Assembly (NCBI RefSeq): GCF_003201815.1
Contig: NZ_QJKB01000006.1
Span: 124,001-188,000 of the forward strand
Origin: Undibacterium pigrum
GTDB lineage: Bacteria; Pseudomonadota; Gammaproteobacteria; Burkholderiales; Burkholderiaceae_D
Length of the DNA stretch: 64,000 nt
Direction: 5' to 3'
The notes beneath the pieces are model-generated. The model had not been told where the DNA came from, made no database searches, and saw only the letters and a program-made list of their open reading frames with translations. The position numbers were made by a program, and so were the translations under genes. Shown piece after piece: positions 46,908 to 51,157 of this stretch. Every line of letters starts with the position of its first letter. The stretch's first letter is position 1.

Positions 46908-49384
46908 GTTTTTTGTCGCTGCAGTAACATCTCAAACTCTTCCGGTGGCAAGGGTTTCGAGAATAAATAACCTTGTGCAAAATCGCAGCCTGCCTGCTTC
47001 AGCAAGTCATGTTGCTGTTGCGTCTCTACCCCTTCGGCAATGACTTTCAGGTCCAGCTTGTGCGCCATCATGATGATGGCTTCAGGCAAGACAATATCAC
47101 TGGCATCCGTTGCCAGGTTACGGACGAAGGACTGGTCTATCTTGAGGTAGTCGATATCAAATTTCTTCAGGTAAGAAAGTGAGGAGTAACCGGTACCAAA
47201 ATCATCCAGCGCCACCTGTATCCCGGCATCGCGGAACTGCAAGAGTTTGCTGGTGATTTTCTGGCTGGCATCCAGCAATAATCCTTCGGTAATTTCTACG
47301 CTGATGGCCTGGCCAGGCAGGTTTTGTAGCGCCAGCTCATGTATCCAGTTGATATAACGTTCCTGGTCACCCTGGAATTCCACGGGAGACTGATTGATAC
47401 TGATCTGGAAGTCTGGGCGATACAGCTCGCGCCATTTCCTGACCCAGCATAATGCCTCACGGAATACCAGGTCGCCGATGGCGATGATCAGGCCGCTGGT
47501 TTCTGCAATGGGTATGAACTCCATGGGGCTGATGAATCCCCGTTGGGGATGCAGCCAGCGTACCAGAGCTTCAGCTTTTTGTATTTTCCCGCTATGGATA
47601 TCGACGATGGGCTGGAAATAGACGCGCAGGCTATTTTCAGCAATCGCAGTGCGCAGATCATTCGTCATGCGCAGACGTGCCAATGCAGCAGTCTGCAGGC
47701 CGGGTGTGAAATAACTGAAGCGATTCCGGCCCTGGGCCTTGGCCGCATACATGGCCTGGTCGGCATGCTTGATGAGGTCATCCAGATTGTCGGCATCGCG
47801 CGGGTAGGCGGTGATACCCACGCTGGCAGATAAATAGATTTCTTCGCCCGCCAGCTGGAAGGGGGTGGACATGCTGCGTATGATGTTTTGCGCGATGGTC
47901 TCAGCCCGGTTTTCCTCATGCATCTCTGGCAGCGAGACGGTAAATTCATCGCCACCCAGACGCGCCACAGTATCGCTTTCCCTCACGCAGTTACGTAGCC
48001 GGTGCGCGGCTTCTACCAGCAAGGCATCACCAGTGGAGTGGCCCAGAGTATCGTTCACTTCCTTGAAAAAATCCAGGTCTATGAACAACACGGCCAGTGC
48101 CAGTTTATTGCGCTTGCTGAGCTTGATATCATGATCCAGTCTGTCGTAAAACATGCGGCGGTTAGGCAAGCCGGTCAGTGTATCGATATTCGCCTGTTGC
48201 CAGATCAGTGCTTCGGTTTTTTTCTTTTCAGTGATATCAAGCACGGTACCGAGCATGCGTTGTGCCCGCCCATCCCTGTCCCATTCCACCACTGCACCGA
48301 CAGACAGTATCCACGCCCACTCTCCACTGGCTTTCTTTTGCCTGAATTCGACCCGGTACTCATCGCTTTTACCTTCAAGATGCTCCCTGAAAGCACGCGC
48401 TGCTGCGGGAATATCCTCGGTATGCACCCTGGCTATCCAGTTTTTTTTGTTCTCTTGAAAGCCTTCATGTGCAAAACCCAGCATGTGCGCGTATTCCGGG
48501 TTGACGATGGCATCGCCAGTCAGCACGTTCAAATCATATAAGCCCTGATGGGTAGCAGACAGTGCCATGCGCAGGCGCTCTTCGCTTTCACGCAGTGCAA
48601 CTTCCGCCTGCTTTCGCTCTGAAATATCGGTGTGGGTGCCAACTACGCGGGTTGGTTTGCCTTCTTCATCACGTTGTATGACGGTGCCGCGCGTCAATAT
48701 CCATTTCCAGCTGCCGTCCTTGCATTGCACCCGGTGTTCATTAATATAGATGGGTGTCTTGCCATCAAAGTGGGCTTGCCTGTCCAGATGCATCTGTTTC
48801 AGATCGTCAGGGTGGGTGCGTCTGTCGAGCTCTTCAGATAAGTCGGCTATATCCTCTTTTTTATAGCCATATATTTCGCGCAGTCGATCGGACAATATTT
48901 CTATACCAGTTTGTGGATACCAGTCCCACACGCCATCACCAGAGCCTTCCAGTGCCAGTTGCCAGCGTTCTTCATGCAGGTGGAATTGCTCTTCACTTTT
49001 CTTGCGCTGGCTGATATCAATAATCATGGCATAGCAACCCTTGACCTTGCCGTCATGATCAATAGCTGGGGAAATTTGGGCAGAAATACAGCGGCTGCCC
49101 CCATGTTGATAGGGCACTGTAGTTTCGTAGGCGATAGTCTCTCCAGACAGTGCACGCTTTACCTGAGGTTGTACATGCAGGAAAGCTTCGTCGCCTATGA
49201 CTTCGGCCATGTGTTTATTAATGACCGCAGAGCGGGGAAGGCCAAACCAGTCTATGTATACCTGGTTAATAAATTGGTAGCGGTAATTTGTATCGACATA
49301 AGAAATGCAGACAGGAAGGGCATCAATCAGATGCCGCAGTTGTTGCAGGTCATTTTCAAATTGCTCAATTGCCGGATTTTTCAC
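46904..49384 (-). CDS. PAS-PAS-PAS-GGDEF-EAL c-di-GMP signalling protein
   Basis: An 826-residue protein with no membrane segment. Three PAS domains (about 15-130, 140-262, 270-388) precede a GGDEF domain (about 395-555). LARLGGDEF is intact, and RESD lies five residues before it, so the inhibitory I-site is present. The EAL domain (about 575-815) has EALVRW, EITEG, DDFGTGYSSLSYLKK and AEGVE, all intact. It may both make and degrade c-di-GMP under PAS control. The start is GTG with AAGG upstream. A structured element lies just upstream. Confidence 0.95.
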   Translation of the reverse strand: MKNPAIEQFENDLQQLRHLIDALPVCISYVDTNYRYQFINQVYIDWFGLPRSAVINKHMAEVIGDEAFLHVQPQVKRALSGETIAYETTVPYQHGGSRCISAQISPAIDHDGKVKGCYAMIIDISQRKKSEEQFHLHEERWQLALEGSGDGVWDWYPQTGIEILSDRLREIYGYKKEDIADLSEELDRRTHPDDLKQMHLDRQAHFDGKTPIYINEHRVQCKDGSWKWILTRGTVIQRDEEGKPTRVVGTHTDISERKQAEVALRESEERLRMALSATHQGLYDLNVLTGDAIVNPEYAHMLGFAHEGFQENKKNWIARVHTEDIPAAARAFREHLEGKSDEYRVEFRQKKASGEWAWILSVGAVVEWDRDGRAQRMLGTVLDITEKKKTEALIWQQANIDTLTGLPNRRMFYDRLDHDIKLSKRNKLALAVLFIDLDFFKEVNDTLGHSTGDALLVEAAHRLRNCVRESDTVARLGGDEFTVSLPEMHEENRAETIAQNIIRSMSTPFQLAGEEIYLSASVGITAYPRDADNLDDLIKHADQAMYAAKAQGRNRFSYFTPGLQTAALARLRMTNDLRTAIAENSLRVYFQPIVDIHSGKIQKAEALVRWLHPQRGFISPMEFIPIAETSGLIIAIGDLVFREALCWVRKWRELYRPDFQISINQSPVEFQGDQERYINWIHELALQNLPGQAISVEITEGLLLDASQKITSKLLQFRDAGIQVALDDFGTGYSSLSYLKKFDIDYLKIDQSFVRNLATDASDIVLPEAIIMMAHKLDLKVIAEGVETQQQHDLLKQAGCDFAQGYLFSKPLPPEEFEMLLQRQKT

Positions 49385-49880
49385 GGTCTTGGCCTTGGTA
49401 TTCGCTCTCCTTTAATCATGCTAAAGGATTTTCCAGTAAATGCAGTAAATTTCCAGATGCCGTGTGGTAATTTAGGTAATTGATATGTGACACTAGAACT
49501 CATTTCATAAATAGGATGAGATGCGTTTGCCTCATAACGTGGGCTGGCAAGGGTAAAGCTGGGGTTTCGTGCAACATGTTGCACGCCTGCGTACGATGTG
49601 CGCTTACCAGCGCACATGCGCCCTGCAAGGGGACGAGGCAGTCAATAGCTTCGCCTATTGACAACGAGTCCAACGCTGTCCAGCACGCGTTATGAGGCAA
49701 ACCCTTCGGGAACTGACGATTTGGGCGCATTGCAGTGCGAAGTTTGTTACCTTGCGCTTGCAAAGGCGGACGCCTTAGCTGCGCACGGTAAACACATGAG
49801 GCCTTGCACTGCATCCCAAATCGTCTTGTTCGCACTCATCCTATTTATGAAATGAGTTCTAGAATACTGTTCGCCAAAGC
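49385..49880. other. Non-coding region holding the structured element
   Basis: The gap between the GGDEF-EAL start and the trmL end is 496 bases, of which 370 are the inverted-repeat element. The remaining 108 bases on the right-to-left promoter side of the GGDEF-EAL gene are AT-rich. The open frames across the element are short and change with strand, so none is annotated. Confidence 0.7.
49493..49862. mobile_element. MITE-like structured element with 28-bp perfect terminal inverted repeats
   Basis: The first 28 bases (49493-49520, starting CTAGAACTCATTTCATAAAT) are exactly the inverse of the last 28 (49835-49862). The outer CTAG at each end could be a 4-bp target duplication around 24-bp repeats, as made by some IS5-group transposases. 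Inside are two arms. Arm 1 is bounded by GTTTGCCTCATAACG (49525-49539) and its exact inverse (49688-49702). It contains the palindrome CGTGCAACATGTTGCACG (49568-49585) and the hairpins ATGTGCGC/GCGCACAT (49596-49617) and GTCAATAG/CTATTGAC (49641-49662). Arm 2 is bounded by GACGATTTGGG (49715-49725) and its inverse (49815-49825). It also contains TGCAGTGC/GCACTGCA and AAGGCGGACGCCTT. No transposase is coded. Confidence 0.8.
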
Positions 49881-50351
49881 TTAGCTGCCGCCTACAAAAC
49901 CATTCTGGCGCCAGGCCTCATACACCACGACTGCCACTGTGTTTGACAGGTTCAGGCTGCGGTTGTCTGGCCGCATCGGCAGGCGTATGCGCTGGCTGGT
50001 GGGGAAGGACTCTCGTAATTCCGGGGCCAGGCCGCGGGTTTCTGCACCAAAGATGAAATAATCACCCGGCTGGAAGGCCAGATTTGCAAACGGCGTGGAA
50101 CCATGCGTGGTCATGGCAAACATGCGGCTGGTATCTGGCTGTTCGCTGGCACAGAATTCTGCCCAGTTCTTATGCACTTTCATGCTGGCATAATCATGAT
50201 AATCCAGACCTGCCCGTTTCATCTTCGAATCATCCAGGGGAAAGCCCAGCGGCTCTATCAGATGCAGTTGCACGCCGGTGTTGGCACACAGCCGGATAAT
50301 ATTGCCAGTATTTGGCGGTATTTCTGGTTCGACCAGGACGACATGAAACAA
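49881..50351 (-). CDS. trmL: tRNA (cytidine(34)-2'-O)-methyltransferase
   Basis: A 156-residue SPOUT methyltransferase: FHVVLVEPEIPPNTGNIIRL, FGAETRGLAPE and the knot motif PMRPDNRSLNLSNTVAVVVY. It methylates the wobble base of leucine tRNAs using SAM. Length and motifs match TrmL. The gap from comF is 56 bases. Confidence 0.95.
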   Translation of the reverse strand: MFHVVLVEPEIPPNTGNIIRLCANTGVQLHLIEPLGFPLDDSKMKRAGLDYHDYASMKVHKNWAEFCASEQPDTSRMFAMTTHGSTPFANLAFQPGDYFIFGAETRGLAPELRESFPTSQRIRLPMRPDNRSLNLSNTVAVVVYEAWRQNGFVGGS

Positions 50352-50407
50352 AATGATTCCTTAGTGGCGTAGTGATGCAGTGGATTCAATGCATATTTAA
50401 TGCACAT

Positions 50408-51157
50408 TCAGTGTATATGGGGCAGGGTACGGGCAAATACATAGGCTGTCACTTTGGCCGCACCATGGCGCTTCAGCATTGTAGCTATTTCATGCATGGT
50501 TATGCCAGTAGTCATGACATCGTCAACAATACCCAGGTGTAAACCCCTGACGCTTTCCATTTCCTTGTCAGCAAGACAGAATGCATGTTTGACATTGTTG
50601 GCCCTGGCGGTGATAGGCAAGCCGCTTTGCATGGCGGTTTCTCTGCTACGTTGCAGGAGGTGAGCATTGCCCGGCACGCCCAGATGCCTTGACAAGGGGC
50701 GGGTAATTTCCCAGGCCTGATTAAATCCACGATCTGCCAGTCGGCCTGAACCCAGGGGGACGGCGCAGAGCAAATCCGGCAGTTCGCTGCCTTCTTGTTC
50801 AGATAATTGCAGGATACTATCTCTCAGCCTGCTGGCAAACCAGGGTGCCAGTGCCAGTTGATGACCGAATTTGAGAGCAAGCACCAGCTGGTCTTGCGGC
50901 GCGGCGTAATCACACACCGTGACAGTCCTGTCAAAAGCAGGTGGATTACTGAGGCAGTCACCACAGCGCGGGCTGGCGCTGGCGGGCGGCAGGGGCAGGG
51001 CGCACTGTTGGCATCGGGCCTGTCCGGTCTGGAAATAAGCATGCTGACAGGCGCCGCATACCACCTCCTTGCTGTCCAGGCGGCACAGTGCGCAGGAATT
51101 TGGTATCAATGCAGCAACAGCATTTTTCCAGGCCAGTTTGAGTTTGTCTGTCAACAT
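50408..51157 (-). CDS. comF: ComF family phosphoribosyltransferase-like protein
   Basis: A 249-residue protein. The N-terminal zinc-finger-like segment has CALCRLDSKEVVCGACQHAY and CQQCALPL, followed by CGDC. The phosphoribosyltransferase domain has the PRPP loop LGIVDDVMTTGITMHEIATM and RGFNQAWEI. It is related to competence and DNA uptake, or has a nucleotide role; the function in this group is uncertain. Divergent from bioC (60 bases). Confidence 0.92.
   Translation of the reverse strand: MLTDKLKLAWKNAVAALIPNSCALCRLDSKEVVCGACQHAYFQTGQARCQQCALPLPPASASPRCGDCLSNPPAFDRTVTVCDYAAPQDQLVLALKFGHQLALAPWFASRLRDSILQLSEQEGSELPDLLCAVPLGSGRLADRGFNQAWEITRPLSRHLGVPGNAHLLQRSRETAMQSGLPITARANNVKHAFCLADKEMESVRGLHLGIVDDVMTTGITMHEIATMLKRHGAAKVTAYVFARTLPHIH

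Follow-up and report, generated by a model that had tools for sequence, protein, structure and literature searches.

A 370-bp repeat in Undibacterium pigrum, at positions 49493 to 49862 of the window (the whole 64,000-nucleotide stretch of DNA analyzed here), is likely to be a MITE that is moved in trans by an IS5-family transposase and whose interior consists of mirror-image hairpins read as a single strand, most likely RNA. The usual view of MITEs is that they are degenerate insertion sequences in which nothing but the ends holds the element together. In this case, the ends vary between groups of elements while the interior hairpin pair and, for the most part, the total length persist across the phylum, and one may ask what makes a parasite as small as about 265 bp maintain such an elaborate structure.

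Direct reading of the window gives an element with exact inverse 28-bp ends and two folded arms, CTAGAACTCATTTCATAAATAGGATGAG being the exact inverse of its last 28 bases. Within an outer CTA / TAG context, the left and right copies of the putative TA target duplication lie at 49494–49495 and 49860–49861, followed inward by a left terminal inverted repeat, GAACTCATTTCATAAATAGGATGAG, at 49496–49520 (forward strand) and a right one at 49835–49859 (reverse strand). Arm 1 (49525–49702, forward) is closed by a 15-bp exact inverted repeat (49525–49539 and 49688–49702) that forms the outer stem around a hairpin core, with CAAGG at 49548–49552 and CAACGC at 49671–49676, both forward. This arm is interrupted by a nested module of about 78 bp (49553–49630, forward), made up of two palindromic hairpins between fixed flanks, and carries an apical hairpin, TCAATAG ... 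CTATTGA, at 49642–49661 (forward); an 18-bp palindrome, CGTGCAACATGTTGCACG, occupies 49568–49585. A linker hairpin, CCC TTC GGG (49702–49710, forward), stands between the arms, and arm 2 (49715–49825), closed by an 11-bp exact inverted repeat (49715–49725 and 49815–49825), is the homologous hairpin on the opposite, reverse strand, with an atypical core in this copy. The original prediction of a 370-bp MITE-like element with exact 28-bp ends, two folded arms, and an 18-bp palindrome was confirmed in all of these respects, coordinates included. Folded as single-stranded DNA, the 396 bases around the element reach -121 kcal/mol versus -59.7 ± 4.0 for shuffled sequence (z = -15.5, with 0 of 100 shuffles as low). 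The element contains no transposase gene and holds a single, mechanically called ORF of 111 aa. Its extent as a whole is indicated by its ends, its fold, its repetition in its own genome, and the empty site in relatives.

Genome-wide searches with the element and with its end, as originally suggested, found both to be repeated: 96 stretches of the genome match the element, and the end pattern has 50 matches, compared with 0 for a reversed-pattern control. Within the genus, the end pattern (at most one mismatch) is present in 17 of 43 genomes, the richest of which, counted as forward plus reverse matches, are G004 (52+53), G066 (30+31), G063 (27+27), G000 (23+27), G032 (22+27), G027 (18+18), G003 (16+16), and G019 (16+14). 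At the family level, the end signal extends to 72 of 392 genomes and 12 of 44 genera, and exact copies of the pattern occur, among the matches listed, in Undibacterium, Herbaspirillum, Herminiimonas, Collimonas, Noviherbaspirillum, and Keguizhuia; of the 80 genomes listed, six are unrelated and have a lone match each, probably by chance. The window element has no match in the plasmids and phages searched.

The copies also define the target. In a set of 73 elements, among them insertion sequences, that measure at least 150 bp and have no more than three mismatches in their ends, TA flanks both sides in 61 and CTA..TAG in 13, and complementary outer neighbors are found in only 25. Over many copies, it is TA within a YTAR-like context that is duplicated, and CTAG, which had been put forward as a possible target duplication, was rejected. 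In the related genomes G027 and G063 the flanks of the window site adjoin, with five bases (AATGA) between them and the element absent. Both flanks are also found in G032, G019, G004, and G065, 22–34 bases apart and too diverged for base-by-base reading, and the right flank alone in G066 and G034; of these six relatives with both flanks, none shows a 370-bp insertion. Because AATGA lacks a TA, this site shows the absence of the element and directly confirms neither TA nor CTAG, leaving the target duplication to be deduced from other copies. An empty site in relatives had been foreseen and was found, although the single CTAG that it was expected to hold was not.

The start of a PAS-GGDEF-EAL reading frame lies 108 bp downstream of the element, and a SpoU-type methylase gene adjoins the window copy. 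The element had been placed in the likely promoter zone of a c-di-GMP gene, and while its position upstream of such a frame stands, no sigma-70-like promoter was found in 49350–49950; the same interval contains one terminator-like site, inside arm 2, where 0.6 would be expected. It is very improbable that the element is a host-beneficial regulator of the PAS-GGDEF-EAL gene. Its upstream location would suit this role, but the insertion is missing from the six relatives, the scanned stretch gave no promoter and a single terminator-like site (0.6 expected), and copies occur at many unrelated sites with no bias in orientation. With crude ORF calls, the 74 elements that had usable flanks and were bordered by an ORF on each side fell into 22 convergent, 20 divergent, and 32 tandem arrangements. 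Such neutrality is expected if orientation does not matter, and provides no evidence for a role in untranslated regions.

A parent insertion sequence with the same ends, which the original prediction proposed to look for, exists outside the element's own genome. Eight IS5-family insertion sequences of 835–855 bp carry these ends: L081 in Herbaspirillum, L101 in a Herminiimonas MAG, L102 and L103 in Noviherbaspirillum malthae, L104, L105 in Keguizhuia sedimenti, and L121 and L122 in two Undibacterium genomes. We take them to belong to an IS427-like group. L081 encodes DUF4096 and DDE_Tnp_1 in two overlapping frames, presumably linked by a frameshift, and both transposase frames are recognizable in all eight copies, broken up in L104 and L122. 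Outside L081 the main pieces of these frames show 47–83% identity, L101 having an additional, weaker second alignment at 36%. The two-frame arrangement of DUF4096 and DDE_Tnp_1, the length of about 850 bp, and the TA target are those of the IS5 family. Plasmid relatives of the insertion sequence are all below 60% identity and, among the matches listed, belong to the IS5 family wherever annotated. When 12 genomes were searched for the first frame, it was recovered at 83% identity in G063, at 80% in G003 (residues 1–132 of 147), and as a remnant with a stop in G019, with weaker matches in G063, G003, and G064. In the genome of the window copy the partner transposase was not found, with one query giving only matches of 24–27%.

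The insertion sequences and the element are alike in their outer 18–20 or so bases and in the flanking TA. In contrast, the element lacks a transposase gene, and its interior does not represent an internally deleted insertion sequence; L081 shares an end with it and nothing of the interior. With terminal inverted repeats, a short target duplication (TA), small size, many copies, no transposase gene, and an insertion sequence bearing the same ends, the element is, judging from sequence comparison, probably a MITE moved in trans by the enzyme of another element. The MITE-like character first proposed for it is supported by the copies, by the insertion sequence with matching ends, and by the site that is empty in relatives.

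The interior of the element has a far wider distribution than its ends. The two arms are oppositely oriented copies of a single hairpin. Read in a common sense, both have an outer stem whose sequence varies freely, followed by CAAGGCG, the inner stem, an apical stem-loop, and finally GCAACGC. Allowing at most two mismatches per 7-base motif, both core motifs could be placed in 128 of 130 arms from 65 elements, CAAGGCG exactly in 94 and GCAACGC exactly in 43; L165, having no central linker, was set aside, and a small number of placements seem erroneous. A covariance model of arm 2 (R1) matched 53 of 229 genomes at the class level (46 of 196 genera; E ≤ 1e-4), its matches being spread over many contigs, and a hairpin model (R2) matched 95 of 299 genomes at the level of the phylum Pseudomonadota (47 of 154 genera; E ≤ 1e-5). 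Both whole-genome scans used the stricter filters of Infernal and put an upper limit on how many candidates were scored, and copy numbers are to be read as "at least" values. R2 found nothing in six out-of-phylum control genomes, a sample too small to carry much weight and in which one of the six is an alphaproteobacterial MAG. In the window copy, arm 1 is matched by R2 at 49604–49700 on the forward strand (E 1.3e-6), and arm 2, with its unusual core, scores poorly (E 0.14).

Elements found through these models are of nearly constant length. An end repeat surrounds the R1 match in 24 of 29 loci (L142–L170) and is absent from five; 21 of the 24 span 261–274 bp, the others measuring 196, 289, and 304 bp, with the length of L161 taken from the best-scoring repeat and not an outer one. 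The 304-bp element, L165, has extra hairpins in its second half. The ends of R1-matched elements differ widely. In a further 30 loci (L280–L309, of which L301 is from the genome of the window copy) a clear end repeat was seen in 19, all 261–272 bp long, and six of the 11 loci lacking one are cut off. Of nine folded elements, among them the window copy, eight are built alike, with an end stem first, then an arm, a CCCNNNGGG hairpin or a short spacer, and the second arm; L165 is the exception. Across 76 loci, corresponding to 73 distinct places with three counted twice, R2 identified 136 arms, and a forward arm is followed by a reverse arm 102–109 bases away in 54, no mirror pair passing in the other 22. 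TA lies symmetrically on both sides of 28 of 43 elements, 25 of which measure 255–272 bp from TA to TA. The first 18 bases of these 28 fall into 17 rough clusters, i.e., unrelated ends, a number that is approximate, since some elements could start a few bases to either side.

These observations might be explained, and we suggest this tentatively, by one old lineage of non-autonomous elements across Pseudomonadota that is defined by the mirror hairpin pair of about 265 bp with its fixed bulged core rather than by its ends. The terminal repeats would have changed so as to borrow different TA-target transposases, and the pair would have persisted through its recognition, as a single strand and in either orientation of insertion, by a conserved factor of the host or of transposition. 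A search for partner insertion sequences of the other end types found DUF4096 genes in 3 of 15 genomes, none with matching ends; around these genes there is one lone 12-base match with three mismatches and no pair of ends. It is thus for GAACTC ends alone that mobilization in trans is supported. The other end types may have partners from other families, or none at all.

The nested module of arm 1 is present in two of 21 aligned elements of the same genome. Free-standing repeats elsewhere match it, and in other genera it occupies the same CAAGG position, in some cases in each of the two arms. It represents a separate structured repeat of 75–85 bp, comprising two hairpins with freely varying palindromes and the fixed flanks GCAGGG..TTCG / CGCCTGCGTAACGG / GCGCCCTGCAAGGG, which stands free or is nested at CAAGG. 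Its sites include window positions 49553–49630 and loci L039–L043, L045, L047–L049, L053, and L054.

Structure appears to be under selection, as initially proposed, given abundant compensatory change. An alignment of 26 elements from several genera (289 columns) has a consensus of 97 pairs, 47 of them with double compensatory changes, and in 41 arms 33 of 35 pairs are doubly changed. In alignment A4, which holds 136 arms (131 distinct), 92.5% of cells are paired, against 53.6% when shuffled and 37.6–42.1% when slid, the covariation score is 0.944 versus 0.210 ± 0.007, and all 35 pairs show double changes; the model to which A4 was fitted favors G-U and includes the core letters, and it also served to pick the matches. 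The unpaired core letters A26, G28, C30, A89, and A90 are 98–100% identical in the 136 arms, a conservation that is partly circular given that the arms were picked with a model holding those letters. The same core is seen in arms picked by the tolerant motif search. The shape of the hairpin has been kept across distant bacteria though most stem letters have changed, and something in the cell probably recognizes this shape.

Covariation of this kind could be mimicked in the absence of any functional selection if template switching during replication (quasi-palindrome correction) kept the palindromes perfect. The stems are indeed near perfect at the DNA level, with little excess of wobble pairs in the outer stems, and short derivatives with one hairpin suggest fold-back rearrangement. 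We nevertheless regard this explanation as improbable, as such a process should erase bulges and mismatches, yet the five unpaired core letters are almost invariant, with the circularity of arm choice noted above, and it does not predict the asymmetry between G-U and A-C in the inner stem.

This asymmetry bears on the form, single-stranded or not, in which the hairpin is read. In a strand test in which pairs were picked by Watson-Crick content alone (89 clusters of the 136 arms), the inner stem contained 133 G-U and 28 A-C pairs, and the outer stem 36 and 26. In agreement, inner positions 5–7 of 64 distinct stems not picked with R2 had 41 TG, 4 GT, and no AC or CA, in a set that came partly from R1, which leans toward G-U likewise; at outer-stem positions 9–21 of the same set 765 of 800 cells were Watson-Crick, with 12 G-U and 14 A-C. 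A first count of 90 G-U against 12 A-C was discarded as largely an artefact of strand choice; the structure predicted on the other strand has 25 G-U and 62 A-C, and the pairs common to both strands 25 and 12. The tolerance of the inner stem for G-U over A-C points to a single-stranded form, either RNA or ssDNA, which this test cannot separate. The nearly strict Watson-Crick outer stem fits maintenance of a palindrome at the DNA level better than it fits RNA.

The hairpins could accordingly act as DNA, extruded as a cruciform or folded on ssDNA at replication forks, where they would bring the ends together or be bound by a DNA protein and so aid transposition or copy number. We consider this possible though rather unlikely. 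Besides the outer stems, in which G-U and A-C are about equally frequent, it would account for arms that continue straight from the end repeats into one cruciform and for a total length mostly near 265 bp. Set against it are the inner stems, where, in the sense direction, G-U is tolerated at roughly five times the frequency of A-C, although G-T is tolerated in ssDNA too, and the fact that IS5-family transposases act on double-stranded ends.

For the element as a whole we favor the reading as a MITE with RNA-read hairpins, which could operate as follows. The outer 18–20 bases are the ends of an insertion sequence, and an IS5-family transposase supplied in trans would act there, inserting the element at YTAR-like sites with duplication of TA. 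The mirror orientation of the arms would ensure that each strand carries one hairpin in the sense direction, and this hairpin would be read as a single strand, most likely RNA produced when flanking transcription crosses the element. The reader would be a widespread factor that sees the bulged core CAAGGCG/GCAACGC, and the mirror layout would make reading independent of the orientation of insertion. We infer the mobilization in trans, the choice of RNA over ssDNA, and the identity and benefit of the reader from the patterns described above. The R2 model, together with the dozens of genomes in which it finds matches, offers a starting point for finding this reader.

Comparison with described repeats reveals partial likenesses. 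The Correia/NEMIS repeats of Neisseria are small MITEs with 24-bp terminal pairing, TA ends, and transcripts predicted to fold, given as 107 and 155 bp in one review and as 204 bp when first described in the other (PMC2229807, PMC10969869). They resemble the present element as small MITEs in their terminal pairing, TA ends, and predicted folding and differ in size and host, and mirror-image homologous arms are not mentioned in the parts of these sources available to us; their processing by RNase III might, by analogy, be a model for a possible role of the hairpins here. The ERIC/IRU repeats of enterobacteria are similar in their TA ends and folded transcript, but are 127 bp long in the portion of the review available (PMC2229807). 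According to the same portion, the CIR repeats of Caulobacter and Brucella also consist of two long arms joined by a linker, but they are about 110 bp long, contain a GANTC motif, and have no terminal inverted repeat in its table, and RUP of Streptococcus pneumoniae is likewise a MITE with ends matching an insertion sequence and a TA target, but is 107 bp long and paired with IS630-Spn1, with no mirrored arms mentioned there (PMC2229807).

ERIC was considered as a relative of the element and rejected, as the hairpin core was not found in it: R2 gave no match to the E. coli ERIC copies L310 and L311, which are the same diverged site between wcaD and wcaE, even with filters off and E up to 10. 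One end of an element at L306 1469–1735 (TACCCATCCCACCTCAAGATGCAGG) is, by eye, 19/25 alike to the ERIC copy L310. Rfam has no match up to E 1 in window positions 48500–51000, and searches of L310, L306, L160, and L088 returned six matches only, all far below gathering scores. Integron attC sites, which have R and L boxes and lie in clustered cassette arrays, were considered by eye; the R1 matches are scattered over many contigs. No published description of a mirrored-hairpin family was found in mainly open-licence literature, which is weak evidence of novelty.

Several smaller observations accompany the family. Relatives of two other elements are found on one and four plasmid records; L337 and plasmid matches H13–H16 place relatives on plasmid records of Azotobacter, Pseudomonas aeruginosa, and Halomonas, with no annotated feature beneath. 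Tiny derivatives of 34–56 bp that retain two ends only and form one hairpin occur at L062, L065, L066, L090, L113, and L118, and most of these are flanked by TA on one side or both. Two genomes of the genus (L069 2005–2181 and L070) share an old, degenerate copy whose flanking letters are the same in both, lying between genes that presumably correspond to petA (Rieske) and mscL. Finally, loci L044, L046, L050, L051, and L052, from other genomes of the genus, hold a related two-arm core between different ends (GGGTCTGTTGACC... or similar), at YTAR-like sites where these are visible.
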